A stretch of 64,000 nucleotides of DNA from Verrucomicrobiota bacterium (lineage in GTDB: Bacteria > Verrucomicrobiota > Verrucomicrobiia > Limisphaerales > UBA9464), in the NCBI GenBank assembly GCA_017309115.1, contig JAFLEF010000039.1, forward strand, positions 1 to 64,000, read 5' to 3'. A program made the position numbers and the translations under genes. Positions 3,836-31,484 of the stretch are shown here, piece by piece (the stretch's first letter is position 1; every line of letters begins with the position of its first letter). The notes beneath the pieces are model-generated. The model was given only the letters and a program-made list of their open reading frames with translations. It was not told the DNA's origin and did no database searches.

Positions 3836-3838
3836 AGG

Positions 3839-4153
3839 TCAGGGTCCAAACAGCACCAACCAACTCGCGCACGCCCACAGAAACGTCAGGGCGGGATAGA
3901 CCAAAATCAGCGGCCCCAGATGGGGCTCCAAACGGACCCAGGCCAAAATCCAACGGCTCAGCACGCACAGAACAATTCCCAGCACGAGGGCAATGACCCA
4001 GCCGGGAAAGAAAGAGCCGTAGAAGTTGATGACTGGATCGCAACCGGTGGTGAGCACCGCCAGCGTCGTCAGCGAACCTGCCGTGGCGGCAGTGCGTCCC
4101 CGGAGGCTTCCGGAGTCGGGTGAGGTCGAAGACAGATCTGAACGCGGCCGCAC
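3839..4153 (-). CDS. YtcA-family small membrane lipoprotein
   Basis: A 104-aa small protein. It has an N-terminal hydrophobic stretch ending at a lipobox-like LTTGC, then a short loop containing FYGSFFPGW and two further transmembrane helices. This matches the YtcA family, which in Escherichia coli is encoded directly upstream of mdtN-mdtO. The neighbouring genes here are an MdtN-like and an MdtO-like protein in the same order, which strongly supports the call. The biochemical role of YtcA is not established. The start is a GTG and the 38 residues before the lipobox Cys are long, so the true start may lie further in. Confidence 0.72.
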   Translation of the reverse strand: MRPRSDLSSTSPDSGSLRGRTAATAGSLTTLAVLTTGCDPVINFYGSFFPGWVIALVLGIVLCVLSRWILAWVRLEPHLGPLILVYPALTFLWACASWLVLFGP

Positions 4154-4350
4154 CGGGCGAGAGTCGGCATCTGGTGGTTGGCCGTCAACGCTCAGTCCGG
4201 AATTGGTCGATCCGTTCCGTGGCCACTCCTTTCGGGTGCCTATTCCCGGGGAGTGTTGCGGTTCGGGAGAGCAGTGCCGCGCAAAAGTGACGCGGGAGTT
4301 GCATTGGCGGCTTGCGGCGGGGTGCTTGAACCGGGTTTGCTGCCCGTGGC

Positions 4351-5736
4351 ATGTCGCTTCCGTCCTCGGGCCCTGTCCGCACCCGCTTTTTGACCCAGTG
4401 GCTTGAACGCGCGCCTGCCCCCGTGTTTGTGGCGGTGGCCATCGTGGCGGCGTTCTCGACCTACTTCGCGATGTACGCGTTTCGCAAGCCCTTTGCGGCC
4501 GCGAAATTTGAGAAGGAGTATTTTCTTGGCACCGCGGTGGCGCTGAAGACCGCCATTGTGATTAGCCAGATCATTGGCTACGCGTTGTCGAAGTATATCG
4601 GAATCAAGGTCTGCTCCGAAGTCACTCCCGCCCGACGCGCCTTCATGTTGGTCAGCTTGGTGGGCATAGCTCAGGCGGCGCTGGTGCTCTACGGCCTTGT
4701 ACCCAACGACTGGAAGGTGGCCGCGATCTTCCTGAACGGCCTTCCCCTAGGCATGATCTGGGGTCTGGTGGTTTGGTATTTGGAGGGGCGGCGAACGTCC
4801 GAACTGCTGCTGGCTGGTCTCAGCTTGTCCTACATCATGGCCAGCGGCGTGGTGAAGGACTTCGGCCGAGCCCTGATGGAAGGAACCGTCGCCAAGTGGT
4901 GGTCAGTGATTCCCGGGATTGGCGCGCCGGTGGCCGGTCTGCTCGGCAAGGTGAGCGAAGGGTGGATGCCGGCGGTGGCGGGATTCCATTTCGTGCCGGT
5001 GTTCTTGGCTTCGGTTTGGCTGTTGAACCAATTGCCCCGGCCCAATGTGGCGGATGTGGCGGCCCGGGCCGAGCGCGAACCGATGAAGGGGGCGGATCGA
5101 CTGGCGTTCGTGAAGCAGTTTGCGTTCGGACTGACGGTGTTGTGTGTCGCGTATTTCTTTCTGACGGCGTACCGGGACTTCCGCGACAACTACCAAGTCG
5201 AGATTTTCGAAGGTCTGGGCTATCCGTATGATAACAACAACAAGTCGATCATTTCCCGGGCGGAAACGATTGTGACTTTTGGGGTGATGGCGGTCTTGGC
5301 GATGCTCAATTTGGTGAGAAACAACCGGACGGGTTTGCTCTGCGCCTTTGGCATCATGACGGGTGGGGTGGTTTTGCTGGGGTTGTCGACGGCGCTGTTG
5401 CAGGCGGGATTGATCAGCGGGTTTTGGTGGATGACCCTGACTGGCTTGGGATCGTATTTGGCTTATGTGCCGTATGGTTCGGTTTTGTTCGAGCGGTTGA
5501 TGGCCTCCACGCGGGTGGTGGGGACGGCGGTGTTTGCGATCTATCTGGCGGATGCGATTGGCTACACGGGTTCGGTGGGTGTGCAGTTGTACAAGGATCT
5601 GGCGGCGGGATCCGTGTCGCGGTTTGGCTTCTTCATGGGCTTCACCTGGTTCATGTCGGTTCTGGGCGCGATCTGCCTGTTGGCGAGCGCAACTTACTTC
5701 GCGCGGCGCACACGGACTTCGTCAGCTGAGAGCTGA
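4351..5736 (+). CDS. DUF5690 family MFS-like transporter
   Basis: A 461-aa polytopic membrane protein with about 11-12 hydrophobic helices. Motifs such as TYFAMYAFRKPF near residue 37, GLPLGMIWGLV near 130 and FLTAYRDFRDNY near 270 match the DUF5690 family known from Bacteroidota and Verrucomicrobiota, distantly related to the major facilitator superfamily. The substrate is unknown. The ATG at 4351 gives a short cytoplasmic N-terminus. The gene is divergent from the ytcA-mdtN-mdtO-like operon, and 197 bp between them should hold both promoters. The stop codon lies inside the second GCTGAGA heptad, so the C-terminal Ala-Glu-Ser comes from the repeat, as in the FUSC gene at 582. Confidence 0.8.
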   Translation: MSLPSSGPVRTRFLTQWLERAPAPVFVAVAIVAAFSTYFAMYAFRKPFAAAKFEKEYFLGTAVALKTAIVISQIIGYALSKYIGIKVCSEVTPARRAFMLVSLVGIAQAALVLYGLVPNDWKVAAIFLNGLPLGMIWGLVVWYLEGRRTSELLLAGLSLSYIMASGVVKDFGRALMEGTVAKWWSVIPGIGAPVAGLLGKVSEGWMPAVAGFHFVPVFLASVWLLNQLPRPNVADVAARAEREPMKGADRLAFVKQFAFGLTVLCVAYFFLTAYRDFRDNYQVEIFEGLGYPYDNNNKSIISRAETIVTFGVMAVLAMLNLVRNNRTGLLCAFGIMTGGVVLLGLSTALLQAGLISGFWWMTLTGLGSYLAYVPYGSVLFERLMASTRVVGTAVFAIYLADAIGYTGSVGVQLYKDLAAGSVSRFGFFMGFTWFMSVLGAICLLASATYFARRTRTSSAES

Positions 5737-5752
5737 GAGCTGAGAGCTGAGA
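5725..5752. repeat. GCTGAGA heptad repeat at a gene 3' end
   Basis: Four tandem copies of GCTGAGA overlap the end of the DUF5690 gene; the TGA stop at 5734-5736 is inside the second copy. The same heptad occurs at 125-152 and, inverted, at about 581-595 and 5945-5971. Confidence 0.85.
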
Positions 5753-5769
5753 GGTCGGAAGGGGAAACC

Positions 5770-5858
5770 GGTGGGGCGACGCTCCGCGGAGCCGTTCGCG
5801 AGTGGAGTGGTGAGGCGGTGCGGTGTGCCGACTGGGTGAAACCTCGCCCTACCACGGA
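5770..5858. repeat. Dispersed palindromic intergenic element
   Basis: The segment begins GGTGGGGCGACGCTCCGCGG and ends with CCTCGCCCTACC, the complement of the start, so it can fold back. Related elements occur at 309-337, 391-414, 11395-11422, 11527-11553 and 11591-11612. It is followed by an ACCACGAATGGGC-type repeat (about 5867-5913) also found near 11685 and 13331. These are REP-like, non-coding chromosome repeats. Confidence 0.6.
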
Positions 5859-5936
5859 AACTTTTGGAACCACGAATGGGCGCAAAGAAACACGAATAGG
5901 GAACCGCACTGGGAGCTTGGAGTGGCTGCCCTTCTT

Positions 5937-5971
5937 TTTCTCTCAGCCCTCAGTTCTCAGCTCTCAGCTTT
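5937..5971. repeat. Degenerate TCTCAGC heptads after trpS
   Basis: About five imperfect TCTCAGC units (TCTCAGC, CCTCAGT, TCTCAGC and similar) sit just downstream of the trpS stop codon on its coding strand. Together with 581-595 and 5725-5752 this makes three neighbouring gene ends decorated by the same heptad. Confidence 0.7.
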
Positions 5972-5973
5972 TC

Positions 5974-6951
5974 TCAGAGTCCACAGGCCTGCCGTGCTCG
6001 TTCTAGAACGCCATCCGCGACGGCCTGGGCGCGCTGGGCGCCGTCCTGGAGCACCTGTTCCACGTAGTCGAGGTTGGCGGCGAGTTCCGCGCGACGGGTG
6101 CGGGCTGGGGCGAGGAAGTTCCAGTAGTGTTCGAAGAGCACCTTCTTGACGTCGCCGTAGCCCGTCCCGCCGGCCCGCAACTTGTCCACCCAGAGCTGAT
6201 ACACCTCCGGGGGCGCGACCAGTTTCAACAGTTGAATCGCCGTGTTTTGCTCGGCATCGGGTTTGGGCTCGGCGGGAGGCCGACTGTCCGAAACGATGCT
6301 CATGACCTTCTTCTTGAGGGCCTTTTCCTCGCCGAATAGTTCCAGGGTGTTGCCGTAGCTCTTGCTCATCTTCTGACCGTCGGTGCCGGGGACCACCGCG
6401 ACCTCCTCGCGAATTCGTGGCTCGGGCAGCACAAAGACCTCGCCGTAGATCTGGTTGAACTTGGCGGCGATGTCGCGGGTCATTTCCAAATGCTGCTTCT
6501 GGTCCTTGCCCACCGGCACCACGTTGGAATCGAAGAGCAGGATGTCAGCGGCCATCAGCACCGGGTACGCAAACAGTCCGTGGTTCACCTTCTCAATGTC
6601 GCCGGAGGCCAGTTTGTCCTTCTTGTCCTTGTAACTTGTGGCGCGTTCCAACAGGCCCATTGGGGTGACCGTACTCAGCAACCACGCCAGTTCAGTGACC
6701 CGGGGAACGGCGCTCTGACGCCAGAAGATGCACCGCTGAGGATCCAAGCCGCAGGCCAGAAAATCGAGGGCCACGTCGAGGGTGTACTGACGGCGCCTAG
6801 CGGCGTCGGTCAGCGTCGTCATCGAATGGTAGTCAGCAATGAAGTAGAACGCCTCGCCCTGCTGTTGCAGTTCGATGGCGGGCTTCATGGCGCCGAAGTA
6901 GTTGCCCAAATGGAGGGCGCCACTCGGCTGGATCCCGGTCAGAAAGCGCAT
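5974..6951 (-). CDS. trpS: Tryptophan--tRNA ligase
   Basis: A 325-aa class I aminoacyl-tRNA synthetase that charges tRNA-Trp in the cytoplasm. The HIGH-like signature is PSGALHLGN at residues 9-17 and the KMSKS loop is exact at 194-198. FIADYHSMTTL (about 37-47) and GKDQKQHLEMTRD (about 148-160) are typical TrpRS motifs. The length is normal for the bacterial enzyme. It is a single gene with no evident operon partner: the RND permease ends 117 bp upstream on the same strand. Degenerate heptad repeats follow its stop codon. Confidence 0.97.
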   Translation of the reverse strand: MRFLTGIQPSGALHLGNYFGAMKPAIELQQQGEAFYFIADYHSMTTLTDAARRRQYTLDVALDFLACGLDPQRCIFWRQSAVPRVTELAWLLSTVTPMGLLERATSYKDKKDKLASGDIEKVNHGLFAYPVLMAADILLFDSNVVPVGKDQKQHLEMTRDIAAKFNQIYGEVFVLPEPRIREEVAVVPGTDGQKMSKSYGNTLELFGEEKALKKKVMSIVSDSRPPAEPKPDAEQNTAIQLLKLVAPPEVYQLWVDKLRAGGTGYGDVKKVLFEHYWNFLAPARTRRAELAANLDYVEQVLQDGAQRAQAVADGVLERARQACGL

Positions 6952-7068
6952 GTCCGGCCAGCATGCGAAACTGGCCGGTGGGGCGAAAGAAAGAACCGTC
7001 CGAACGAGCGGAGCCGCGAGGCCAGCGGTTGCACCAGGAACCTCGCGCCGACGATTGTCCCGGACGGG

Positions 7069-10000
7069 TCACTTGGCGGGAACTTCCGTTAGACCCACAG
7101 GTGCGGGATCAGACGTGTGCGGCTGCGGACGTCGATGCGTGAGCCGTCCGAGCAAGATGTAGAACACGGGAATCACGAACAGCGTCAGGAAGGTGCTGGT
7201 GAGCATGCCGCCCACCACGGCCACGCCCATCGGCCGCCGGCTTTCCGCTCCCGCGCCGAAGCCGATGGCAATCGGCAGGATGCCGGCAATGGTGGAAAAC
7301 GCCGTCATGAGAATAGGGCGAAGTCGAACCCGGCCAGCCTCGATCATGGCATCGTAGGCGTTGGCGCCCTTTTCCATTTCCTGATTGGCGAACTCGACCA
7401 GCAGAATCGAGTTCTTGGTAACGAGTCCCACGAGCAGGACGAGTCCGATTTGGCTGAAGAGATTGAAATTCATCGCCGGGATGTCCGGAATGACATCGAT
7501 CTTGCCGAGCCAGTACAGCAGCCAGAGCGAGCCAAAAGCGCCAACGAAGGCCAGGGGCAGCGCCAGCATGACCGTGAAAGGATGGATCAGACTCTCGAAC
7601 TGGGCCGCCAGGGTCATGTACACGATGATTCCCGCCAGACCGAGCACCCACCAGATCTCCGTGGACGCCTCAGCCAAATTGCGCGCGTCGCCGTCCCACG
7701 CGTACAGGAAGCCGGCCGGCAGATCCCGAGCCAGCAGCGGTTCCACTTGCTTGACGACGGTGCCAATCGGAACGGATCCCGGGGATGCGGTGATGCTGGC
7801 TGAACGCAGTCGTCCATAATGGCTGATCGAGTTGGGCGCGGCGCCTTCCGACCGATTGACGAGACTGCTCATTTGCACGAGGTCACCGGTGGCACTCCGG
7901 ACAAAAACCTTATCGAGATCGGACGGACGCAGCCGGGAATCGCGTTCCAGTTGCACAATGACGTCGTACTCCTTGCCGTCGCGCTTGATTCGACTGAGGT
8001 CGAGTCCGCCGAAGAGTATCTGCATGGTCCGGGAAATATCGGCGACACTGACTCCCAGCGAGGCGGCGCGTCCGCGGTCAATGGCGATCCGAAGTTCGGG
8101 TTTGTTGATTTCGTAGCTGACGCGGACATTTTTCAGCAGTGGTTCGCCGGTTTCATTGGTCAGACCGCGCAGTTGGTTGGCCATGCTATCCGCAGTCTTG
8201 CTGAGGGCATCGAGATCCTGGTTTTGGAGCACCAATTCGAAGGGGGAGCTATTGAAGCTGACTTCGATGGATTTCGGCAGGTTGGCGATGGCCAAGCCGC
8301 CCTCGACTTCCATCATGAGCCGTTGAGCGATGCCGCCCGGACCGTTGACGATCTCCTGAACCGACCGTTGGCGGAGGGCTCGGTCCTGGAACGTCACGAA
8401 GACCACTCCCAGGCTCGCCTGACCGGGTCCATTGAATCCAGGCGCGACCATCGCACCATAACTCGTGACCTCGGGAATCCCAGCGATGATCTCTTCGGCC
8501 TTTCGAAGCTGACGATCGGTGAATTCGCTGGTGGATCCATTGGGAGTGATGACCAGAGTGAATAGTCGGCCTTTGTCCTCCAGCGGCAGGAAATCCTGCT
8601 CCAGTCCGCGATAGGCCAAAACCATCAACAACAGCGTGGCGCCGGTGACCCCCACCATCACCAGTCGGTGCCGCAGCGCCCAGCGGAGTCCAGAAACGTA
8701 GTGGGAAGTGATCCAATTGAATGTGCGCTCGAAGAAGTTGAAGAGCGCACCGTGCTTTTTGTTGTGAACCGGTTTGAGAAGCCGGGACGCCATGGCCGGT
8801 GACAGGGTCAGGGCGACAAAGGCGGAAATCACCACCGAGCCGGCCACGGTCAGGGCGAACTCAATGAACAGCCGTCCCGTCGTGCTCTTTTGGAACGCCA
8901 GCGGCGTGAACACCGCCACGAGGGAGATGGTGATCGCGATGACCGCATAACTGATTTCCTCCATCGCCTTGAAGGAGGCCTGCATCGGCGGCATGCCTTC
9001 CTCAATGTGCCGAAAAATCGCTTCCAGCACGACGATGGCGTCGTCCACCACGATGCCGATGCTCAACACCAGAGCGAGCATGGTCAGGATGTTGACCGAG
9101 TATCCGAAGGCGTAGAGCAGGGCGAAGGTGCCGATCAGCGACACTGGAATCGCGACCGCCGGAATCAGGGTGGAGCGGAAGTCACGGAGAAACAGAAAGA
9201 TAATCAGCACCACCAGCACGAAGGCGATGCCCAGGGTCTCCCAGACTTCACTGATGGCTTTCTCCACGAAGGTGCTGGAGTCGAACCCGACCCACAGATC
9301 GGTGCCGGGAGGCAGCCCCGGCCGGAGCCGTTCCATTTCGCGTTTCACTTCCTGGGCGACCGCCACGGTGTTGGCCTTGGCTTGTTTGACGATGCCCAGG
9401 AAGATACAGGGCTTGCCCCGGGCGCGGGCGATGGTGCGGTAGTCTTCGACACCGTCTTCGGCGCGACCGATGTCCCGAAGCTTGATCAGATTCGCGCCGT
9501 CAGCCCGGATTACGAGGTTGTTGAACTCTTCGGCGTCCTTCAGTTCCCCGCGGGTCTGAATGGTCATCTCGCGGTCCAGGTTCTCCACTCGGCCGCTCGG
9601 GAGATCTATGTTCTGGGCGCGGAGTGCATTCTGCACGTCCAGCACGGTGACACCGCGCGCGGCCATCTTCTCCGAGTCCAGCCAGAGTCGCATGGCAAAG
9701 CGTTTCTCGCCGCCGACGGTGATGGACGAGACGCCGTCGATACCCTGGAAGCGGGGCTTGAGCTGACGTTCCGCCAGGGTGGTCAGTTCGAGCGGGGAAT
9801 ACCGGTCGCTGTTCAAGGCCAGCCAGATGATGGGCTGGGCATCGGAATCCTGCTTGGCGACGATCGGTTCAAGGATGTCTTCCGGCAGGCTACCCCGGAC
9901 CCGGGAAACTCGGTCGCGCACGTCTTGGGCGGCGACGTCGATATCGCGGGACAGATCGAACTCAATGGAAATGCTGCTGACACCTTCGCGGCTTTCGGAT

Positions 10001-19103: not shown

Positions 19104-19655
19104 CTACGGATTGAGTTCGTGGAACAGCCAGGCCCGCGCGTACGCCCACCAGCGTTTGGCGGTGGCTTCAGAAATGCCCAGGAGCTCGGCCGACTCTTCA
19201 ATGGTCAGTCCAATGAAGTAGCGGAGTTTGACCAATTCAGCCTGACGGGGTTCAAGCTGGGCAAAGCGGTCCAGAGCGTCACTCAAGGCCAGCATTTGGT
19301 CCTCGGATTCCGGAGCAACCAAGTGGAGTTCGTCCAGTTCCACCCGTTCCGGATCAGACCCGCGCCGCAGGGTCTGCTTGCGGCGAGCGTGGGCAATTAG
19401 GATTCGCCGCATGGCTTCCGCTGCGGCGCCGAAGAAGTGCGCCCGATTGCTCCATGTCTGATGGGGCGAATCCACCAGGCTCATCCAGGCCTCGTGAACC
19501 AAAGCAGTTGGCTGAAGCGTGTGGTTCGCGGACTCCCGCGCCATCTTCGAAGCGGCCAGACGGCGGAGTTCGTCGTACACCAGCGGAAGCAGACGTTCGG
19601 TAGCCAAGGGTTCTCCCTGGTCGAGGGCGTCCAGGATCCGGGTGACTTCGCTCAT
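19104..19655 (-). CDS. ECF-type RNA polymerase sigma factor
   Basis: A 183-aa sigma-70-like factor. Region 2 includes [11 protein letters not shown] and [17 protein letters not shown], a signature of the acidobacterial/PVC ECF subfamily, and region 4 contains [20 protein letters not shown], the helix-turn-helix. Its ATG overlaps the TGA of the kinase gene (ATGA), so it is translationally coupled and is the last gene of the kinase/chaperone cluster. Predicted role: redirecting RNA polymerase to a regulon in response to the kinase branch. The start at 19655 is set by the coupling. Confidence 0.92.
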
Positions 19656-22600
19656 GGGGTTGTGGCGCTCCAAGACCTCCAAAACTCGGCGGCAGTCTGT
19701 TCGGGACCGACCCCAGCTTTCCAGCGAAAGCTGATTCGATCGAGCCGCGGAAGTGTTCGTAGCCGGCCGATGTCTGCCGCGCCCTCGGGCAGCATGAGTT
19801 CCTCTAGAAGGATGAGGCTGGACACTGGAGCCACGCTGGTCAGATGGGCGCAGCCGTCGACATACAGTGTCCGCAGGGGAAGGGTCATTATGGCCGCGAG
19901 TTCGGTAACGGGAGAGCCGGTGAGATAGAGCCGTTGCACGGACAGTCTGCGCAACGGGCTGAGATCGGCAACCTGGGTGGTGCCGATGTCGAGCAACTCG
20001 AGTTTGGAGCAGGATTCCAGGGGAGTGAGATCAATCAGGGCCGTTCGCGAGACTCGCAGTTCCCGCACCGAGGCGCCGAGTGGTGAATTGCGGAAGGCCT
20101 CCAAGTGGGTGAGGCGGGTACCCCGGGCGTCGAGTATCTCGATGTTGGAATCTCGCAATGGCGATAGATCGGCCACAGAGGATTCGTCCAGGCTCAACAC
20201 TCGCAGGGGAAGACCCCGAAGCAGGGCGGTGTTGGTGAAGGCCGGATCGTGAATCTCCAAATGCCAGCCGCCGCTGCGGGCAGCGCCCGCGCTGAATTGA
20301 ATGCCCTGAGACTGGAGGGTCTGGAACAACTCCGTCTGCGACGCCTGAAATTGCCAGAACTCTTCGGCCGATTCGGCGGCGCGGGCGGTAACGGGATGCC
20401 AAAGGAAGGAAATGCGATTCAAGCGAGGCAGCGAGCGAAGGACGGTTACGTTCGTGGCGCTGCGGGGGAGCAGAACTTCCTCCAGATTGGTCACAGACGC
20501 GAGCGGAGACACATCCGTTACCGCTGTTCCCGAGAAGAACAGAGTGCGCAGGGGAAGATGGCGGAGGGGGGATACATCGGAGACCGGAGTGCCCGCGATG
20601 AACAGTTGTTCCAAAGGCAGATTGACCAACGGACTCAGGTTCGTGACCGGGGTATCGGTCAGGTCGAGACGTTCGAGTGGCAGATGGCGGACTGGAGTGA
20701 GATCCGACACCTGAGTTTGTGGCAGGCTTAAGTGAACAATCGGAGCATTGGTCGGAAGGAAGGAAAGATCGCGAATCGGCTGACCGTTGAGACTGAGCGA
20801 ATACGTGCCCTTCGGGAATTTGACCAATGTAAATCCGTACAAGCCCTGGGCTCGGAGCGGTGCCGCGATGCGTTCTTCGATCTCTCGATCGCGCCAGAAG
20901 GCTTCGCTGGGCTGGGCCGTTTGCACGAGCATGCCACTCATGATCTCGACTCCGATCTGTCGTAGTTTGGGATGCGTGCGGAGTCGATTGATCGCGGCCT
21001 GTTCGGACTCCGGGAGCGAGCGAAAGGACACCGGCAGCAGGAGAATCTCCAGATCGGTCAGATCCGATAGAACGGCGTAGTTTTTGGCTTCGTCGCAGCC
21101 ATTGAGCAGGAGTTTGCGAAGGGGCATTCCCCGTAGCAGCGAAAGATCCGAGAACCGAGTTCCCTGCAGGCTTAGCGTTTGCAGGGGTCTTCCGGAAAGG
21201 GCGGAGAAATCTCGAGCAGGAATCTGGGTCAGGTCCAGGGAGCGCAACGGTAGCGAGCCAATGACCGATAAATCTGACACCTGGGTTCCGCGTAGATTGA
21301 GTTCTTCCAAGGGCATTCCCCGGAGCGGATCAAGGTCGGTGATTCCCGAACACTGATCGAGGCGCAGTCTCACGAGCGGCAGACCTTGCAGGGCCTTCAA
21401 TTCCGATACGGGCGTCCCTTGAAGAAAGAGCGTATGAAGGTTGGTGAGGGACCGCAGGGGTGAAAGATCCCGAACTTGGGTCTGGCCCAGATGAAGAACT
21501 TGGAGCGGGGACTGCCGCAGCGGTCCGAGGTCGCGAACTTCTGTGCAATCGGTCAGCCGCAGTTCACCCAGGGGCATTCCCGTGAGTGAAGAGAGTGAGG
21601 TCACCCGGGCCCCGGAAAGATCGAGGGCAAGCCGGCCGGAGGGAGTTTGGGTGAGACGCTCGGCGAGCGGACGTTCGGGGCCGGTTGGCAAATCCCGTAG
21701 ACGGGTCAGCCAGTAGTCGCGCAACAGGGCATCCTCCTGACCTAACAGACGCGACACCGGCATGAGTTCGGCGGTGGACCGCTGATCCTGATCCAGAGCC
21801 CGGCGGAGCCGGAGCAGGCTGTCCCGGGAGAGGGCGCCATTGGTCCCGGTGGGTGCGGAGAGCAGCTCGGAGCACAACTGCAGTTGCTGCTGAGCCCGGG
21901 AATTTCCGGGATCCTTCTGGAGCAGTTTTTCAAACTGAGCCTGGGCTTCGCTGAGCTTGAGTTGCGCGAGAAGCAGATCGCCTTTGGCCAGCGGGTATCG
22001 AGTTTCATCGGGACGCAGTCGGGCGGCGTAGTCGAGCTTCTCCACGGCCTCGTCAAAACGCTCCTGCTCAGTGAGAACCCGGGCTTGTTCGGCGAAGGCA
22101 GGTGCTGTGGCTCGCAGTTCATTCAAGGCGCGGCGGGCACGTGCGGCCTGCCATAGGCTGACCGTCAATCCGATGACTACGGCGAGAGCCACGGCTGATC
22201 CTGCGGCGACGCCCCAGCGATGTCGGCGGACCCATTTCTGGAGTTTGTAGCCGGCACTGGGTGGGCGTGCTGCAACAGGTTCGCTGCCCAGATGACGCTG
22301 AATGTCCAGGGCCAGCCCGTTGGCGGTCTCGTACCGGCGGTTGCGGTCCTTTTCGAGACACTTCATGACAATCCAGTCGAGGTCCCCGCGAATTCGTCCG
22401 GTGAGGTCCTCGAACGTGGCTTGGCGACGCCGGCTCATTTCCGTGGCCGTCTGCAGGTCCAGCGTTTCGAGTCGGGTGGACGGCCGGGGCGGTTCCACCT
22501 CACGCAGAATCCGGCGCAGTTCATCCAGGCCCGATCGCAGCAGTTCTTGTCCGTCGAAAGGCGGACGGCCCGTCAATAGTTCATACAACAAGACCCCCAG

Positions 22601-23431
22601 GGAGTAGATGTCGGACCGGGTGTCGACATCGACGCTGCTCAAGGCGGCCTGTTCTGGACTGGTGTAAGCGGGAGTTCCGATGAAGGCGTGGAACTGGGTG
22701 AACAGCGTCTTGTCGGTGAGTCTCTGGGCGGTGGCCTTGGCGATGCCAAAATCGATGACTTTGGGAACTGGTATGCCGTCGTTGATCGTGACGAGGATGT
22801 TCGAGGGTTTAAGGTCCCGGTGAATGATGCCTTTTTGATGGGCGTGTTGAACCGCCTGACAGACGGGAACAAAGAGCCGCAGCCGTTCGGTGGTCGTCAG
22901 CCGCGCTTGATCGCAGTAATCGGTGATCCGAATGCCGCGGACCAATTCCATGACGAAGTAGGGACGGCCTTGCGGGGTGGTGCCGCCGTCCAGAATTCGG
23001 GCGATGTTCGGATGGTCCATCATCGCCAGCGCCTGACGTTCGGCCTCGAAGCGGGCGACGACGCTCCGGGAGTCCATGCCCGGCTTGATGATTTTCAGGG
23101 CCACGCGGCGTCGGACCGGTTCTTCCTGTTCCGCCATATAGACCACCCCGCAGCCGCCTTCGCCAATCACTTCGAGTAGCTTGTAGCGACCGATTCGTTC
23201 ACCGGGCGTGCCAGTCAAATCACCGAGGGGAAGAGCATCCAGACCCGGGGTGGTGGGGCCGTCTTCGAGGAAGCGTCCGGCGCGTTCCGTGGCGCGCAGC
23301 AGGTTTTCGACGCGGGCTCGCAGAGCCGGATGGCCTAGGCAGGCCTGATCGAGGAAGGCGACCCGTAGTTGAGGGTCCTCGAGGGCCAGGGCTTCCGCGA
23401 AGATCGACTGTTCGGATGGATCCGGCTTCAT
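19652..23431 (-). CDS. Transmembrane Ser/Thr protein kinase with leucine-rich repeats
   Basis: A 1259-aa Hanks-type kinase. The catalytic domain (about 83-380) has the P-loop GEGGCGVV at 90-97, Lys113 in [14 protein letters not shown] at 204-211, DFG at 227-229 and a TSPE activation segment, so it looks active. One transmembrane helix lies at about 407-427. A TPR-like segment (about 450-510) and some twenty irregular leucine-rich repeats follow (about 600-1250; repeating VSDLSPLRxLPLxxLxLxGT). The kinase should be cytoplasmic and the repeats extracytoplasmic, likely as sensor or ligand-binding surface. It lies 85 bp downstream of the Hsp70 gene and overlaps the ECF sigma factor by 4 bp. Confidence 0.92.
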
Positions 23432-23516
23432 GGTGGGAGGCAGGGCCTCACCCCGACATGAGCAATTGGAAACGAAAAGGGCTCATCCGGCGATCGGATT
23501 TGTGAGGTTGCGAAGT

Positions 23517-25994
23517 TTAGATCAGGCCGGACTGATACCCGCGTTGGCCCAATCCGCCTCCGGGTCGCCGGTGGAGTCTGAACAGGGCTTGGACAATGCT
23601 TTTCAGGCTTTCGATGCGGCGTTCGGCGACTGCCAGTTGGCCATGTTCCACCAGGCGTTCCGCTTGGGTCACATCCGTCATGCTGTCTTTTTGAGCGGCC
23701 AAGTTATTGAACAGTTGGACCCAAAATTCCGGATCCGAGGAAGCGACCCGGAAATACAGAGAACCCGTACTTTCGATCAGCTTCCGCAGCCGATCAGGGC
23801 AATGGGCGCGAATGGCGTCATCGATCTCGTTGGAAAGTTCCTGGGCGGCATCCTGATCCTGCCGTGAGCCACGGTTCTCCGCGATTGCTTGGGTGGACCT
23901 GAGGGTGTCCCTGGCCTGGGCGGTGAGCGCCGGCCATTCGAGGCTGCCGATGATCTCGTCGAGCAGGAGTTTGAGTTCCAACAGACGCCGCTCGCATTTG
24001 GTGGCGGCGTCGGGATCACCCGGCGCCGCCGCCAGCAGTTGGCGGACTTCCGGAACCAGTGGCGATTGCTCAAATCGCTCCTGAACCTGGCCCTCCAAGC
24101 CGGGATACCTCGCTGTCTGGTTGGACTTGAGCGATTCAAACCGGTCCAATTCGATTTTGAAATCGTTCGCCAGAAGGTTCGGATCCACTTGGTGTCGGCT
24201 CAGGTCCAGACTGACGTCGAACTGTTCGTCCAGCAGGGGCGAGTAGGCCGTGATACGAATGAGTCGATTTGCGTCGATTGAAAGAGAGACCTCGATGGAA
24301 CTGTCCGAAGGCAGATCCCGACTGAGTTTGGATGCGTGAATCAATAGTTCCCCCACCCGGCGGTTCCGGTCGGCGAGGTCGTTCTCGCCCTCCACCAGGG
24401 GAATTCGAAGCAGTTCTCCCCCTTGGCCCTTTCGCAAGGCCACCAGCGACTTGAAGGTTCGTGTGGATCGCTGCGGCAGGCCGCATCCCTTGGGGAAAAA
24501 GCGATCATACCGGTTATCGGCCAGCGCGAGTCCCAGTGAGTGGATGAGCGGTTGTTCTTCGACGACCGATCCAATCGTGTAGTGAAACTCTTCGGGCAGG
24601 ATCGGCTGACGCTGTCCTTGGGGGTCGAGGAGTTCGATTGAGAACGTGTTTCGTTGACCACGAACGGCATGGACCGAAACCAGGAAGACGCCGTCGGGAC
24701 GCAGGCTGATGCGGCCGCTCCGCCATTGGGTCTGGTGGTTGGCGATCTCCACCGTGAATCCGGTGAAGTCGCTCACGGCTTCGGAACTGACCCGGGCGCC
24801 GACGCTGGGCTGATCTTCGATGCCCATGGGTGGGCAGGAGATCTCCAGGCGGAAGTCTTGAGCTGTGCGGTTGAAGGCCGGCCGCACAAGGGTGCGTTTC
24901 TGGGTGCCCGCGAAGACCGCCGCACCTTTGGCCACCGCAGTGAGCGGGTCCACCGTCAGATCCAGCGGTATTCCCAGTTCATGCGTGAGCTGCTCGCGGA
25001 AGTACGGCGCGAGCGTAGGTCCGCCGACCAGGATGACTCGGTCGATGTCGCTGGGCTCCAGTTCCTTTTCTTTCAAGACTCGCCGGCAGATCTCCACCGA
25101 GCGGCGGATGATGGGTTCGGCGACGCGGACCACGTGTTCGCGTTTCAACTCCGCCTCGAATTCGATGGTATGGCCCATGTCGTCCTCGAATCGACAGGTC
25201 TCCAGAAGAGTTCGCTCACTTCGGGAGAGATCGATTTTAGCGGTTTCGGCGGCCCGCTTGAGTTTGGCAAAGACTTGGCGCCACTTCGGATTCCCCCGCT
25301 TGAAATCATCGAGTAGATTCTGTTCGAGGAGTTGGGGAACGATCAACTCCTCCACGACTGCCCAGTCGATATCCGCCCCGCCTAGATGGTTGTCTCCTCC
25401 GTGATTTACGACCTGGATGATACCGGAATCGGATTTGATGACAGCCGCGTCGAAGGTGCCACCGCCGAAATCGTAAACCATCCAATACGACCTCTCTTCC
25501 TCTGCCTGAAATCCGTAGGCCAGTGCGGCCGCTACTGGCTCCTGGAGCAGGGGACTCTCCAGGAATCCGGCCAGTTCGGCTGCTCGCCGGGTTGCAGCGC
25601 ACTGATGCAGTTCGAAGGCAGCGGGAACCGTGATGACCGCGGCGTCAATCCATTCATTGAGACGTTGCTGGACATCCCCCCGCAAGGATTTGAGCACCTC
25701 GGACGACAAATCCTCAGGAGTTCGCACCTGTCCGCAGGACTTAAACTCGTAACGATGTTCGGTACCCATCCTCCGCTTGAACTCGGAATAGGCATCCTCA
25801 GGCGAGTAGATGAGTTTGTTTCGTGCCCGGTGGCCAACCTGGACGGTTCCCGAACGATCCAGGCTGACCGCTGAGGGCGTGATATCGCTGTCGGAGTTGT
25901 TTTTGACAACTTCGGCCGAAACCCCTTTGAGGATGGCGATGGCACTATTGGTGGTTCCGAGGTCGATTCCGAAATCGATGGTTGTGCGGTTCAT
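23517..25994 (-). CDS. Hsp70 family chaperone ATPase (DnaK-like)
   Basis: An 825-aa Hsp70-type protein. The nucleotide-binding domain shows phosphate 1 DLGTTNS at 11-17, VPAAF at 123-127, EPVAAALAYG at 152-161, phosphate 2 DFGGGTFD at 175-182 and VGGPTLAPY near 318. The substrate-binding region diverges from DnaK, and a long helical C-terminal part (about 620-825) without a DnaK-type acidic tail follows. It is larger than DnaK (about 640 aa) and is not the housekeeping gene. Upstream neighbours encode a GrpE-like and a J-like protein, so the set is a dedicated chaperone machine. It lies 61 bp after the GrpE-like gene. Confidence 0.88.
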   Translation of the reverse strand: MNRTTIDFGIDLGTTNSAIAILKGVSAEVVKNNSDSDITPSAVSLDRSGTVQVGHRARNKLIYSPEDAYSEFKRRMGTEHRYEFKSCGQVRTPEDLSSEVLKSLRGDVQQRLNEWIDAAVITVPAAFELHQCAATRRAAELAGFLESPLLQEPVAAALAYGFQAEEERSYWMVYDFGGGTFDAAVIKSDSGIIQVVNHGGDNHLGGADIDWAVVEELIVPQLLEQNLLDDFKRGNPKWRQVFAKLKRAAETAKIDLSRSERTLLETCRFEDDMGHTIEFEAELKREHVVRVAEPIIRRSVEICRRVLKEKELEPSDIDRVILVGGPTLAPYFREQLTHELGIPLDLTVDPLTAVAKGAAVFAGTQKRTLVRPAFNRTAQDFRLEISCPPMGIEDQPSVGARVSSEAVSDFTGFTVEIANHQTQWRSGRISLRPDGVFLVSVHAVRGQRNTFSIELLDPQGQRQPILPEEFHYTIGSVVEEQPLIHSLGLALADNRYDRFFPKGCGLPQRSTRTFKSLVALRKGQGGELLRIPLVEGENDLADRNRRVGELLIHASKLSRDLPSDSSIEVSLSIDANRLIRITAYSPLLDEQFDVSLDLSRHQVDPNLLANDFKIELDRFESLKSNQTARYPGLEGQVQERFEQSPLVPEVRQLLAAAPGDPDAATKCERRLLELKLLLDEIIGSLEWPALTAQARDTLRSTQAIAENRGSRQDQDAAQELSNEIDDAIRAHCPDRLRKLIESTGSLYFRVASSDPEFWVQLFNNLAAQKDSMTDVTQAERLVEHGQLAVAERRIESLKSIVQALFRLHRRPGGGLGQRGYQSGLI

Positions 25995-26055
25995 TAGGAA
26001 AGGAGGACGTTGCAGGGAGAGTGTCAGGGAAGGGATCAGGCAATGGATGGGGCGG

Positions 26056-26562
26056 TTACTTTTCAGGTACAGCGATGACGACCTCCCCAGGCTGAAGGAG
26101 GCGATGGTCCCAATAGATGGTTGGTTTGACGGTCTCGAGGACGTATTCCCGGGTCGCGCCCGGGATGGGTTGACTGGTGATCACAGTCAAAGGAAGACCG
26201 AAATCGAATGGCTCGCCGACGGGATCGTGGAGGCGCAGGCCAAGGTCCTGGAACGTGTCCTGAAGAATTTCCACATGTCGGAACAAACGTTGCAGGTCGG
26301 CAGTCGGCTGACTCGTCCTGTAACCCTGCAATCGGGCGCGGAGTTTCCAGGTCTGCGTGGCGATAACGGCCAAGCTAGTACGGAGGGTCTTGGAATTCTG
26401 GGCGTCGAGCTCCCGTCTCGTTTTGGCGAGTTCTTGGAGGAGTTCGCGTTGCACCTGAAGCAGACTCAGAATGGCCTCATCTTTCTTGGAGTGGCTCCAT
26501 GAGTTCAGGGTTTCGGGGGTGATGGGGACTGTCGGATCGGGGGAGGGCTGGGAACTGTTCAT
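26056..26562 (-). CDS. GrpE-like nucleotide exchange factor (divergent)
   Basis: A 168-aa protein; the ATG at 26560-26562 is chosen because upstream residues overlap the preceding gene. It has a Ser/Pro-rich N-terminus, a charged helix (about 25-85) that could form the GrpE coiled-coil dimer stem, and a C-terminal region ending DHRLLQPGEVVIAVPE. That region resembles the GrpE beta-domain pattern (GEPFDF..., then RxLxPAxVxV). Sequence similarity is weak; the position, directly upstream of an Hsp70 gene and after a J-like gene, is the main support. Predicted role: ADP release from the neighbouring Hsp70. Confidence 0.6.
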   Translation of the reverse strand: MNSSQPSPDPTVPITPETLNSWSHSKKDEAILSLLQVQRELLQELAKTRRELDAQNSKTLRTSLAVIATQTWKLRARLQGYRTSQPTADLQRLFRHVEILQDTFQDLGLRLHDPVGEPFDFGLPLTVITSQPIPGATREYVLETVKPTIYWDHRLLQPGEVVIAVPEK

Positions 26563-26588
26563 GGCGGGGAAGGTGTATACCGCTACGG

Positions 26589-28772
26589 CTACTGAGTTGG
26601 CAGCGACGAGGGACCCCACCCTGGAACCGGGTCCACCTTCCTGCTTTGGAAGGCCCAAATCACCAGGAGCACGAGAACGATGAGGAATCCCACGGAAATG
26701 GTAGTGGATACAGAGACCGTTCGGGGCGGGCTTCGGGGAGCACCATGGTTGAGATCTGCCTCGAGACTCCGTTTCAACTCTGGAGTGACGGCAAAAAGAA
26801 GGGCCAGTTGCAGAGCCTGATGCGCTGTAACCGGGTCGCCTTCTTGCTGGATGGCCTGAGCCGAAAGTGTTCGCAGAAGGGAGACAGTCGCAGCGGCAAG
26901 TCGATCGCGGAGTTCGGGTGCACATTCGAGGTCCTTGAGGGCTGCCTGCAGCCGGTCAAACCACCGGGAACGGAAGGTGTTCAGGCGATCCGACGGCCAT
27001 TCGTTGGTGTGTCGAAGGAGATTCAGTTCATCAATGGCCTGATCGAGGGTGGCTCCGTGAAAGTATCTGTCGCGCACCCGGACTATCCAGTCGGCCAAAC
27101 TATCCTTGCTGGACTGTCGTTTTGAATTCCAAGACGAGTTCGGTGAGTCCTCAGCTGAGTGCGGGGACTCCGGGACTTGACGGGAAAAACGGTGGGTGTC
27201 TCGGGAAAGCAGATTGAGATCTTCGGGTGAGTGGGCGAAACGGTAGGCCAGCTGGTTGGCCTTAAGGGCCGTGGCGAAATCTGAATGCCGGGCGGCCCGC
27301 AGCGAAAGCATCCTGAAAACCCGAAGGGCAGCGGAAGTGAGGGTCCGGGATGACTCCTGGTTTGGGGGTAATTCGGACACGGCGCAGAGCAGCTTGGTCA
27401 ACAGCGTGTTCTCGATGAGACGAAGGGCTTGATCGGGCACCGGTGATTCGGCCAGTTCTTCGAGACGGCGGAGGATTACATCCAGCCGGGATTCACCGAA
27501 ATGCCGTCGAAGAATGGCTTCTTCCGTTTGGTCCCAGGCGAACCGGGAGGAGGCGGCCCTCGGGATGTCACTGACCTTCGGCGGGGCGGGATACCGGGCG
27601 GCCAGAAAGTCGAGGTCTTTTGCCAGACGATCCTCCAGGTTTTTGGAGGTCACCAACTCCAGCATTTTCTGGAGGTTCTGAATCGCCGTCGGGCCATCTT
27701 GAGTCGCTTCGAAATGTCGGACCACCAGCCGATGGCAAGTTTCGGCAATTCCATTGAACAGATCGTGGGAGGTTCGTTCAACGCCGAGGAGCGTGAAGGA
27801 GGGCAGCAGGCGAAGGGCGAGACTGAGAAGTTCGTCGGCGTGTCGGTGGCCCTCAGCTGGTTCGGCAGCAGCATCTCGTTCGGCACGGCGGGAGCTTTCG
27901 AGGAGATGATGTTGGGAGGCCTTCAGGAGGCGATCCGCCGCTCGACGCGCCTCGGTCTGGTTCGAAGTCCGCTCCCGCAGGTATCGGGCATGGATCGTCG
28001 CCAAGTCACTCCGCCCGGCTTTGGCGTATCGGAGAGCTAGCTGCCCGTGAATCAGAGCCAAAGCCAGGGGTAGGGTGCGGCGAAACCGGTAACCAAATCC
28101 GGAAGTCAGGCGTGGTTCCCGGAGTCGGCGAAGACGCGCCTGAAACCGTTCCCAAAAGGGCTCGTCAATCAGTAGCCGTTCCCATCGGGATTGGGCCTGG
28201 ATCCACCAGGCGTCCACTTCCTCCCGGGTGAACTTGATGTGGCTCTGTTCTGATGGGGCTCGTTCACAATCCAAAGCCCGAAGATGCCAGTAGATCGCCA
28301 GATTGTGGGTGGCCACCGCGGAGTGTTCGGAACGTCGTTCGGTTTCGGTCCAGATCTCTACGGCTGCGGCGATGTCTCCCGAGCGAAGCGCTGTCCCGGC
28401 GGCGTCGGTGGTCGAGTTGTCGAATTCCGAAGGCCAGAACCAGAAGAACTCGTCTACCAGTCGTTCTTCTGCATCCTGGAATCGTTGGACGGCTGCTCGT
28501 AGGTCGTCCAGCGTTGGGGGCGGGTTCAACGGCAACGGCCCATGCCCGGTTTCAATCGAAACACCCAGTTCCGCCAATTGCTTGACCCGGTTGGCCCGAC
28601 GCGCGAGTTCGCGGGTCGTTGCTTCGACTCCGATTCCGAAGATGCGGAAGGCATTTCGTCGGTAGATCTCTGGATCAGCCGCAGCCAAGACCACTTCGCA
28701 CTCCAACTCCGACTCCAAGTGGGTCGGGAAGGGAGTGTTAGGAACATCCGGAGCGGACGGCTCAGGGCCCAT
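26589..28772 (-). CDS. Membrane-anchored J-domain-like protein, Hsp70 partner
   Basis: A 727-aa protein with a J-like N-terminal segment (about 34-112: RRNAFRIFGIGVEATTRELA, then a helix ending ERLVDEFFWFWP). The layout recalls DnaJ proteins, but no HPD tripeptide is present. The middle is a long helical, TPR-like region (about 120-560). A single C-terminal transmembrane helix (about 687-709, VGFLIVLVLLVIWAF) would anchor it with the bulk in the cytoplasm. It is the first gene of the five-gene cluster, 26 bp before the GrpE-like gene. The J-like call is an inference from fold pattern and context; it could instead be an unrelated helical adaptor. Confidence 0.55.
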   Translation of the reverse strand: MGPEPSAPDVPNTPFPTHLESELECEVVLAAADPEIYRRNAFRIFGIGVEATTRELARRANRVKQLAELGVSIETGHGPLPLNPPPTLDDLRAAVQRFQDAEERLVDEFFWFWPSEFDNSTTDAAGTALRSGDIAAAVEIWTETERRSEHSAVATHNLAIYWHLRALDCERAPSEQSHIKFTREEVDAWWIQAQSRWERLLIDEPFWERFQARLRRLREPRLTSGFGYRFRRTLPLALALIHGQLALRYAKAGRSDLATIHARYLRERTSNQTEARRAADRLLKASQHHLLESSRRAERDAAAEPAEGHRHADELLSLALRLLPSFTLLGVERTSHDLFNGIAETCHRLVVRHFEATQDGPTAIQNLQKMLELVTSKNLEDRLAKDLDFLAARYPAPPKVSDIPRAASSRFAWDQTEEAILRRHFGESRLDVILRRLEELAESPVPDQALRLIENTLLTKLLCAVSELPPNQESSRTLTSAALRVFRMLSLRAARHSDFATALKANQLAYRFAHSPEDLNLLSRDTHRFSRQVPESPHSAEDSPNSSWNSKRQSSKDSLADWIVRVRDRYFHGATLDQAIDELNLLRHTNEWPSDRLNTFRSRWFDRLQAALKDLECAPELRDRLAAATVSLLRTLSAQAIQQEGDPVTAHQALQLALLFAVTPELKRSLEADLNHGAPRSPPRTVSVSTTISVGFLIVLVLLVIWAFQSRKVDPVPGWGPSSLPTQ

Positions 28773-29135
28773 TTGAGGTGAAGTTGGAGGAAGTTAACGC
28801 GGTGGGAGGTCAGATCGCCCAGGAAATAAGGTGCGGGCAGCTGACCCGGCATCCAGGCGACAACGAATCGCTGGCTTGGGTTTGGCGCTCCAGGAGCAAT
28901 CCTTTGTCGACGAATCCCAGGATGGAAGGGTTGGTCGTCACGAGGTGAGCATTGGGAGGGAATCCGGAATAATGTCGGGTTCGGATAGTGGATCTAGGAG
29001 CACTTGATATGAACCCGTCTGATTGATCGTATCGGAGAAAGACTGGTCACCCGCCTTTTGTTGGCAACGCAAATCGCTATGCAATTCCGGCAACGAGCAA
29101 ACGTCGGCGCCGCATTCCAAACGCTTCGCGACCTC
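28773..29135. other. Intergenic region upstream of the chaperone cluster
   Basis: This 363-bp gap separates the bufC stop from the J-like gene on the same strand. Short open frames exist (for example 28938-29120) but none has a recognisable product, a ribosome-binding site or coding character. The promoter of the chaperone/kinase/sigma cluster should lie here; I could not single out a convincing -35/-10 pair. Confidence 0.5.
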
Positions 29136-30032
29136 CTAACCGATTTCGGTTCCCTCTTCCACGGCGATGAAGAATCCCTCGCGGGCCCAGCGGGAGAACC
29201 ATGCCTGAATCTGGGCAGGTGCGACCGGTTCGATTGCCAAGGCGGCTTCCAATGAGTCGGAAATCGTGGCGCCGCTCTGGAGGCGGGACAGGGCGGCGTG
29301 CTCGCCCACCGAGAGCGGATGCCGGCGCACGACGTAGTCACGTCGGGACAGCGCGAGATAAGTGGGCACCGGAGCGGGGAGATCCCACTCGGGCTGAGGG
29401 TCAGTGGGGGCGCTCCGGACGGCGTTGAAGTGGTCACTGACGGGGAATGCCGCTTCGAACAACTGCATTCCAGGCGCCAAGATCAGTCGACTGGCGGCAA
29501 AGGTGTCGGGATTCCCGGCGTACTGAGAGAGATCGAGATGCGGCAGATCCTCCGGGCCGGGTCCGTCGAACACTTCGAACAGCGCCCATTCGAAGCGGGC
29601 GAGGTCGATCACGAAGTCAGCCCAGTCGAGTTCGCAGGTGTTGTCCTTGGGAGGCCGCTCGCGGGCGAGAAATCCCGGGAACTCCTGGCCCAAGACATTC
29701 AACGTGTAGCGACGCGAAGGATGCGACTGCAAATAGTCGAAGGCGAGTTCGTGGAATACGTCCTCGCCTACCGTCCGCACCAGTATGGGATAGACGTCGC
29801 CCAGACATTCCAGAAGTCGCGCGTAATAGGCGTCGGCATAGACCGAGAGACGGGACTCGGCATCGAGTTTTGAAGAAGCGGTGATTCGGTCCGCAATCTG
29901 AAGGGGCGTTCCTGCTGACCCGTCAGCCGAGTGAGCCGCAGCTCCTCGGGCCACCCCGGAGGGATGCGTGATGACTGCCTGGAACCAGCGCTGAACTTCG
30001 CTCAGGTCAGGCGGTGGATTGGGCGAACTCAT
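29136..30032 (-). CDS. bufC: BufC/HvfC family peptide-modification chaperone (DUF2063)
   Basis: A 298-aa protein. The N-terminal DUF2063 domain (about 1-140) contains [12 protein letters not shown] and [22 protein letters not shown], followed by the all-helical C-terminal domain typical of HvfC/BufC. In known bufferin systems BufC binds the precursor and helps the DUF692 enzyme modify it. The start is set by the ATGA overlap with bufB and a good GGAGG ribosome-binding site 7 bp upstream. It is the last gene of the bufA-bufB-bufC operon. Confidence 0.85.
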
Positions 30033-31027
30033 AGCACCTCCGCCCAACGGCGATGGAGGGGCTGGGGAAGGGAAGGAGTTGGAGGTGGAGTGTTGAGAGG
30101 TGAGAGAGTGGACGGAGTCGCAGATCGGCTCAGCGGAAGCTTCGCCCCACCGGGGAGAGTTGAGAGATGGGATGTGGAATCGGGAACGTTGGGCACGGTC
30201 TCGCCTGATTCGTACCGTTTGGCTTTGAGAACTTCGCGATGGACGACTTCGAAAGGCGGGATGTTGGAATCCCATTCAAGGAGGGTGGACACTCCGCCAG
30301 TGAGTTGATGGGCCAGGCGGTACAGTTCCCAAACCGGATCGACCACCGGGTGATCGTGGGTGTCAATGATGTGCGTACCGCGATGGGTGTGGCCTGCCAG
30401 ATGAAACTGAACGATGCGGTGGGCCGGCATGGCCCGCAGAAAGGTCTGCGGATCGTAGTCATGATTGACCGCGCATACGTAGACATTGTTGACGTCGAGC
30501 AGAATTCCCACGTCGGCCTCTTCCGCCAGTCGAGCTACGAATTCCCATTCCGGCATGGTGGAATCACGAAAACCGATATAGGTGCTGGGATTTTCCAAGA
30601 CCAGTCGTCGACCTAGGAAATCCTGCACCGTTCGGGCCCGCTCGACGACGTGCTTTAGGCTCGCCTCGGTGAGCAGCAGGGGCAGCAGATCGTGGGTGTT
30701 TTGTCCGGCGACACCGGTCCAGCAGACGTGGTCCGAGACCCAGGCGGGCTGGATCTCGTCCGCCAGGGCCTTGAGGCGTCCTAGGTAGTCCCAATCCAAG
30801 GGATCGGTGCTGCCGATCGACAGTGACACCCCGTGTAGAATGACCGGATAGCGGGCGGCGACCTGGTTGAGGACGTGGCGGGGACGGCCCCGCGAATCCA
30901 TGTAGTTCTCGGAAATCGCCTCGAACCAATCCACTGCCGGCCACTCTTGAAGAATGTGGTGGTAGTGGGCGGTCCGCAGGCCCAGGCCGAGTCCGAGATG
31001 GGGCAGACCCAGGCGGGGAAGGGGCAT
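30029..31027 (-). CDS. bufB: DUF692 multinuclear iron oxidative enzyme (BufB)
   Basis: A 332-aa TIM-barrel enzyme of the DUF692/MNIO family that installs modifications on peptide cysteines. Expected metal ligands are visible: HGVSLSIG (His65), SDHVCW (Asp99-His100), LENPSTY (Glu145-Asn146), LDVNN (Asp178), HLAGH (His209, His213) and DTHDH (Asp222, His224). The usual family length is about 280 aa; here a low-complexity Ser/Pro/Thr tail of about 45 residues is added, coded by repeat-like TGAGAGG/TTGAGAG DNA just before bufC. It lies 22 bp after bufA. Predicted job: converting Cys of BufA to thiooxazole or a related group. Confidence 0.88.
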
Positions 31028-31049
31028 GAGGTCAGACGGGCCGGGCAGG

Positions 31050-31484
31050 TCAGGCCTTCTTTTCCGGCGCTGGTCCGAACTTCAGATTCTTCTTGGTCAT
31101 CTGGGTCTCGAAAGTCTTGCGAGCCTTCTTCCAAGCCTTGTCGTTGAGGGGCACCTCGCAGGCGCCTTGGCCTTTGCAGGAGTTCTCACCTGGATGTTCC
31201 CCGCAGCCGCCCTGGCCTTTGCAGGCGTTGTCACCGTGACAGCCGTGGGCCTCGGCGGTGGCGCAGTTGCCGACGCCGGCGCAGCTGTTGTCGGCGCCCT
31301 TGCCCTTGCCCTTGCAGGTATTGATGCCCCGGCAGACGTGGGGATCGCTCAGGATGTTGGCCGGGTCGTTGACCGCCTTTTTCTTTTCAGCGGCCTGAAC
31401 GAGGGCGTTGGAACCGAGCAGGAGACCGCCTAGGGCGGCGCCGGTGTAGCGGCCGAAATCACGGCGAGAGAAGGAGTCAGACAT
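31050..31484 (-). CDS. bufA: Bufferin-type Cys-rich precursor peptide (BufA family)
   Basis: A 144-aa exported peptide. The N-terminus has a twin-arginine motif, [10 protein letters not shown], followed by a hydrophobic core and an AxA-like cleavage site (about residue 32), suggesting Tat rather than Sec export. The mature part has nine cysteines in a regular C-x5-C ladder with Gly/Lys-rich spacers (CRGINTC, CAGVGNC, CHGDNAC, CKGQGGC, CKGQGAC). This composition matches bufferin RiPP precursors modified by DUF692 enzymes; bufB and bufC follow immediately. Known bufferins sequester copper in the periplasm, and that role is inferred here. Confidence 0.8.

Follow-up and report, generated by a model that had tools for sequence, protein, structure and literature searches.

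The gene cluster at 19104-28772 of the window, the term used here for the entire 64,000-nucleotide stretch of Verrucomicrobiota DNA that was analyzed, consists of two joined modules, a chaperone triad and an LRR kinase-ECF sigma factor pair. The triad is a recurrent but rare and patchily distributed unit, and a Ser/Thr kinase adjoins it in 9 of the 11 resolved J-family loci (12 loci in all, one unresolved). Only in this window was the triad found joined to this ECF. The original prediction had joined chaperones, kinase, and sigma factor into one signaling path; the recurrence of a kinase beside the triad bears out one part of that union, but the LRR kinase-ECF pair proved to be a separate module. 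Our searches of open-access papers brought up no description of this gene set.

Layout of the cluster and its junctions

All five genes lie on the minus strand of the window, which belongs to contig C45 in a draft genome of 7.53 Mb. They encode a J-like protein (26589-28772, 727 aa), a GrpE-like protein (26056-26562, 168 aa), an Hsp70 (23517-25994, 825 aa), a Ser/Thr kinase (19652-23431, 1259 aa), and an ECF sigma factor (19104-19655, 183 aa counted from the ATG inside the ATGA overlap). Successive genes are separated by 26, 61, and 85 bp, and the kinase and sigma genes overlap by 4 bases (ATGA); the coordinates, strand, gaps, and overlap claimed for these five genes were all reproduced, except that the genes are clustered and not "fused," as the title of the original prediction had it, since there is no gene fusion. 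A pattern scan of the four junctions revealed no promoter-like or terminator-like site, the promoter part of the scan being limited to sigma-70-type promoters, and the 85 bp between the Hsp70 and kinase genes leave room for a promoter. Across the cluster region there was no excess of either signal over shuffled sequences (promoter-like, 1 versus 1.8; terminator-like, 5 versus 10.1). On the 5' side of the J-like gene, a 363-bp gap (28773-29135, minus strand), which holds a weak terminator-like site at 28848-28834, is the probable start of the transcription unit; on the sigma side, a convergent frame ends 38 bp past the sigma gene. The original prediction had made the unity of the cluster depend on junctions free of internal promoters and terminators and on conserved co-occurrence in relatives. 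In the scan, the junctions are free of such sites, and the triad with a kinase recurs, but no second case of the triad beside this ECF came to light.

Directly upstream of the cluster, at 29136-31484 on the minus strand, are a DUF2063 gene, a gene for an MbnB/TglH/ChrH (MNIO) enzyme, and a gene for a small Cys-rich protein with a weak DUF7640 match. This order of DUF2063, MNIO, and Cys-rich genes is bufferin-like.

An altered J-Hsp70 contact

The protein identities originally assigned were clear in Pfam for the kinase, the sigma factor, and the Hsp70, whereas the J-like protein has no Pfam DnaJ match and the GrpE-like assignment is marginal. For the J-like protein, a profile of the N-terminal domain (11 rows) was compared with the PDB; J-domain proteins made up 16 of the 22 rows returned, and all DnaJ rows align over one common stretch. 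Since the best E value is only 0.012, these matches are individually unconvincing, and three of the remaining six rows are PARP-1. An AlphaFold2 model of residues 20-361, built from three sequences (mean pLDDT, 78.9), places helices at 41-45, 53-68, 88-99, and 101-109 (positions given after a shift of 19 in model numbering), which is the J-domain order. With this model, in which the solenoid part dominates, Foldseek retrieved nothing at an E value of ≤0.001 from either the PDB or a set of viral models. The loop lacks HPD in 11 of 11 aligned rows; in the L056 protein, the letters HPD occur before helix I, outside the loop. The protein can be described as a putative degenerate J domain without HPD (~35-115), a helical solenoid, and a C-terminal membrane segment (690-708), a predicted tail anchor. 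The membrane anchor originally assigned to this protein is borne out by a plain hydropathy window, in which 690-708 is strongly hydrophobic, and such a segment is present in 11 of the 17 J-like frames examined, which include partial ones (L054, L056, and L041) and a second L056 frame that has no membrane segment. The likeness of the 168-residue GrpE-like protein to GrpE is confined to its C-terminal part and is marginal: the Pfam GrpE match (E value, 0.015) falls below the curated cutoff, and the match to GrpE in the PDB (E value, 0.062) moved to 0.28, third in the list, when more rows were used.

The Hsp70 (Pfam match, 1.6e-77) has a full nucleotide-binding domain (residues 1-368), ~105 extra residues that replace the DnaK linker, a substrate-binding part from ~485 with a weaker match (i-Evalue, 2.6e-7), and a helical C terminus; the structural comparison in effect covered residues 2-368. 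Between the matched blocks lie 117 residues in the family, as against 12 in Mycobacterium tuberculosis DnaK. The extra segment is mostly beta, with strands predicted at 381-474, in a model whose placement of the domains is unreliable because its pTM is 0.45. Six aligned triad Hsp70s are 34 to 47% identical to that of the window. Elsewhere in the window's genome (G000:C35:160742-163426), neighboring frames of 611 and 931 residues have weak Hsp70 matches.

The residues through which DnaK receives a J protein were compared between 14 triad-type Hsp70s and 30 controls. Nine of the 14 come from J-family loci, and the other five are more loosely related (L040, L052, L076, L103, and L104); the L041 Hsp70 was excluded. 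The controls are the Hsp70 frames of L001, L002, and L011-L038, all from the window's genome and family, that passed a DLGTT and EP-x-A filter. The DnaK-type linker, Arg167, and Asn170 are absent from all 14 triad-type proteins and kept in all 30 controls; the Thr173 position likewise holds another residue in 14/14 and is kept in 30/30. The GGGTFD phosphate motif is found in all 44. We take Asn170 and Thr173 to belong to the same contact site of DnaK as Arg167. The residues named in the available text of PMC8215388 are His33 of the HPD motif, which touches the linker (Leu391), and Asp35, which touches Arg167 and Gln378; the same text describes a loss of DnaK stimulation when the H or D of HPD is changed in a J protein. 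Since HPD is missing from the J-like protein and the linker and Arg167 are missing from the Hsp70, both contact sides are non-canonical, with the phosphate motif retained; as read from the sequences, the canonical J-Hsp70 contact is rewritten on both sides of the triad.

Distribution of the triad and its neighbors

Among 387 genomes sampled from the phylum, a profile search with up to 5 candidates scored per genome detected the J family in 6, and a BLAST search with up to 2 candidates scored per genome detected it in 8. G173 and G258 (BLAST E values, 3.0e-4 and 9.8e-4) were dropped as members, the profile search having failed to recover them. The family is present in 5 of 144 genomes of G409's order and 2 of 177 of G193's order; the three samples belong to one phylum, overlap, and all contain known members. 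Of 51 genomes in the window's family, two have a near-full-length Hsp70 match: the window's own genome and G013, whose Hsp70 is a looser relative at 30% identity. The triad held up as a conserved unit, in that the order J, GrpE-like, Hsp70 recurs in eight further loci (L053, L055, L056, L057, L073, L074, L075, and the planctomycete L039). In L041, the order is present with broken frames (kinase, first J gene, and Hsp70), which, like the broken J frame of L056, were kept unrepaired; L054 and L058 stop at contig ends. By eye, positions 1-1520 of L039 hold repeated short motifs in an array-like arrangement, and a frame at 3746-7216 joins a sulfatase-modifying-enzyme-like stretch to a J-like protein.

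Pseudomonas hygromyciniae and Aminobacter sp. MSH1 carry looser triads, recognized by position and length, on plasmids; the products are annotated as hypothetical proteins and an Hsp70 family protein, and transposase or integrase genes are close by. The C-terminal part of the Hsp70 retrieved 3 weak plasmid records (22 to 25% identity), two of which were inspected, and no match among phages. The J region had no match on plasmids and no confirmed relative in IMG/VR, and the plasmid Hsp70 DNA had no match in E. coli genomes. In L040, L052, L103, and L104, the GrpE and J roles were assigned by position and length, and the J-like protein of L076 was assigned by eye. The plasmid three-gene sets L103 (8022-13002) and L104 (7840-13278) end in an Hsp70 family protein of 833 to 843 residues, and in L104 the C terminus of the first protein gives a peptidoglycan-binding match. 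The distant IMG/VR contig L076 (2128-12360) carries, in one run, genes for a protein that looks J-like, a Sel1 protein, a short protein, a triad-type Hsp70, and a kinase-AAA fusion.

At 8 of the 12 J-family loci (L053, L054, L058, L074, L039, L041, L073, and L075), the kinase beside the triad is a small protein of ~366 residues encoded upstream of J, whereas the window has an LRR kinase downstream of Hsp70. The small kinases are 49 to 53% identical to that of L053 and contain the HRD and DFG motifs; those of L041, L073, and L075 have broken frames or run off a contig end, and L073 has a 141-residue frame that separates the small kinase from J. No kinase was found near the triads of L056 and L057, and in L055, the unresolved locus, 544 bp of sequence precede the first J gene. 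In a survey of the 387 genomes, with up to 5 candidates scored per genome, the small kinase was detected at an E value of ≤1e-75 in 3 places in 2 genomes, all three adjoining J. The window's genome has no small kinase at this threshold among 5 scored of 73 candidates. The triad-kinase association is recurrent and therefore probably meaningful.

Two further stretches near small kinases are recorded here. In L054, a 1192-residue frame (4029-7607, minus strand) combining AAA_2, AAA, and peptidase M41 lies directly upstream of the small-kinase and J-like genes. In the IMG/VR contig L101 (737-5612), genes for a Fic-like protein and a Mokosh-like helicase are followed by a truncated small-kinase start, which is 84% identical to that of L053 over 74 residues.

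The window kinase (Pfam Pkinase, 2.6e-44; LRR_4, 8.5e-28) comprises a kinase domain (83-370), a membrane segment (408-426), TPR, and leucine-rich repeats, the last of which probably lie across the membrane from the Hsp70. It is one of 33 similar kinases in its own genome, 12 others being 59 to 66% identical over the searched region; with 33 such kinases and an estimated ~6,000 genes, the chance of finding one on a given side of the triad is below 1%. Its partner is a clear ECF sigma factor (Sigma70_ECF, 4e-64; PF07638, TIGR02999). Five strong PF07638 sigmas (E value, <1e-40) are encoded in the host genome, 21 in all at an E value of ≤0.001; a kinase gene is downstream of three of the five, near none in one case, and upstream of the window's. 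G033, from a different genus of the window's family, encodes a sigma that is 71% identical to the window's and comes after its kinase, again with a 4-base overlap; the 14-kb stretch read there has no triad. Because G033 has the pair without the triad, and given the 33 similar kinases in the host genome, we regard the LRR kinase-ECF pair as a separate module. Elsewhere, a sigma gene close to the triad on the same strand was encountered only in L041, where a sigma-70-like gene of a different kind lies 0.9 kb upstream of the broken kinase.

At the DAED position of other sigmas, the window sigma has Thr50 within QPTA, and three other sigmas of the host genome have QPTA or QATA there. Two features of kinase-controlled ECF pairs, an adjoining kinase gene and a Thr replacing DAED, are both present in the window. 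According to the text available from PMC8103513, phosphorylation of EcfP at the DAED-equivalent position by a neighboring kinase activates the sigma factor, and the accessible part of PMC13147305 likewise has the kinase next to EcfK switching its sigma on by phosphorylation at this position. Given the position of Thr50 and these precedents, action of the window kinase on its sigma factor may be soundly inferred.

Explanations and known systems

We tentatively propose that the triad is a non-canonical Hsp70 machine coupled to a kinase, and that the LRR kinase-ECF switch stands in here for the usual kinase, a reading that we hold to be possible, at somewhat less than an even chance. In its favor are the conserved order of the triad, the loss of HPD and of the Hsp70-side contact residues, the kinase at 9 of 11 resolved loci and its low likelihood as a chance neighbor in this genome, the position of Thr50, and the lack of terminator-like sites in the junctions. 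The J-like protein would tether the triad Hsp70 to the membrane's inner face, with a coupling of the two proteins that would not need the HPD trigger. Control would be supplied by the triad's kinase, most simply via phosphorylation of the J-like protein or the Hsp70. In the window's genome, the local LRR kinase would fill the place of the usual small kinase and would also phosphorylate the sigma factor at Thr50; the sigma factor would then drive the operon, so that an envelope signal would both raise and activate the chaperone machine. It counts against this proposal that the LRR kinase comes from a large local family and not from the small-kinase family. Further points against it are the kinase-ECF pair without a triad in G033, the lack of a nearby kinase at L056 and L057, the 85-bp gap with its room for a promoter, the weak similarity behind the GrpE and J assignments, and the probable location of the leucine-rich repeats across the membrane from the Hsp70.

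It is conceivable, if somewhat unlikely, that the modules merely stand side by side, a mobile accessory triad having landed upstream of an older kinase-ECF pair with no mutual regulation or contact. Such an origin would fit the pair without a triad in G033 and the triads without the pair at the other loci read, the numerous similar kinases of the host genome, and the patchy occurrence of the triad (6/387, 5/144, and 2/177 in overlapping samples), with transposase or integrase genes near the looser plasmid triads. It sits less easily with the recurrence of a kinase beside the triad in other lineages and with the tight, same-strand packing of the genes and the lack of terminator-like sites in their junctions. 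Somewhat doubtful, too, is a reading in which the chaperones are output only: an envelope-sensing kinase would activate the sigma at Thr50 for transcription of the triad, whose proteins would be ordinary, unphosphorylated targets. The placement of Thr50 at a known switch position, with EcfP and EcfK as precedents in the available texts of PMC8103513 and PMC13147305, and the location of the kinase-sigma pair at the close of the same-strand gene run are consistent with this arrangement, which nevertheless leaves the small kinases at 8 loci without an adjacent ECF gene unexplained.

We consider it quite improbable that the triad, the kinase, and AAA+ neighbors constitute a conflict or defense system in which the Hsp70 machine would hold or sense a target. 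The patchy spread and plasmid forms would suit a defense role, as would AAA+ genes near L041, L054, and L075 and in L076 and GmrSD-type, AlbA_2-type, GajA/GajB-like, or Mokosh-like genes near L041, L074, L104, and L101; HSP70, GrpE, and DnaJ are also part of GTPase-centered conflict systems in the portion of PMC7159879 available. The scanned neighbor genes were, however, hand-picked, without a background rate, no PADLOC model matched the J-like, GrpE-like, Hsp70, or sigma proteins, the kinase matched general kinase models, and the 8 window proteins scanned hold no defense effector or GTPase.

The proposal of a kinase-coupled machine could be taken further. The HPD trigger and its receptor would have been lost together, with kinase phosphorylation of the J-like protein or the Hsp70 setting the ATPase cycle instead and the same kinase activating the sigma factor, thus tying the chaperone state to transcription; we view this extension as unlikely. 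Since HPD and the Hsp70-side contact are both lost and the phosphate motif, the J-like helix order, and the GrpE-like partner are kept, an Hsp70 would here be driven in another way. If true, this would show that routes other than the docking of HPD on the linker can drive an Hsp70. The recurrent kinase neighbor is a direct candidate for this alternative drive, and the window would connect the candidate to a sigma factor.

The triad resembles DnaK-DnaJ-GrpE in combining, in one run, an Hsp70 nucleotide-binding domain containing GGGTFD with J-domain-like and GrpE-like partners, but it differs in the absence of HPD and of the linker and Arg167, in the ~105 extra interdomain residues, and in the membrane anchor on J. 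The GAP1-N2 GTPase conflict systems (Kaur et al. 2020), as far as the text of PMC7159879 was available, also bring together HSP70, GrpE, and a DnaJ or TPR protein, with kinases appearing in another theme of the group; in contrast, Pfam detected no GTPase in the 8 window proteins, and no FNIII match was found in the 6 J-like proteins scanned (the window's and five others). Like EcfP, PknS-EcfK, and ECF43, the window has a transmembrane kinase adjoining an ECF sigma in which Thr replaces the acidic DAED residue (available parts of PMC8103513 and PMC13147305). Unlike in those pairs, the kinase comes first and the sigma last, with a 4-base overlap and behind a chaperone triad; in three other kinase-ECF pairs of the host genome, the sigma is first. 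E. coli HscC with DjlB/DjlC likewise unites a specialized Hsp70 with a membrane-anchored J partner; the accessible portions of PMC8215388 and PMC3861889 include a reference title that describes DjlC as tail-anchored and a report that HscC binds sigma70. HscC is stimulated by its J partner DjlC, is 550 to 580 residues long, and reportedly does without GrpE (PMC8215388, available text), whereas the triad Hsp70 has 825 residues and an adjoining GrpE-like gene. HscC, different as it is in length and GrpE use, is the nearest functional parallel to the triad Hsp70.
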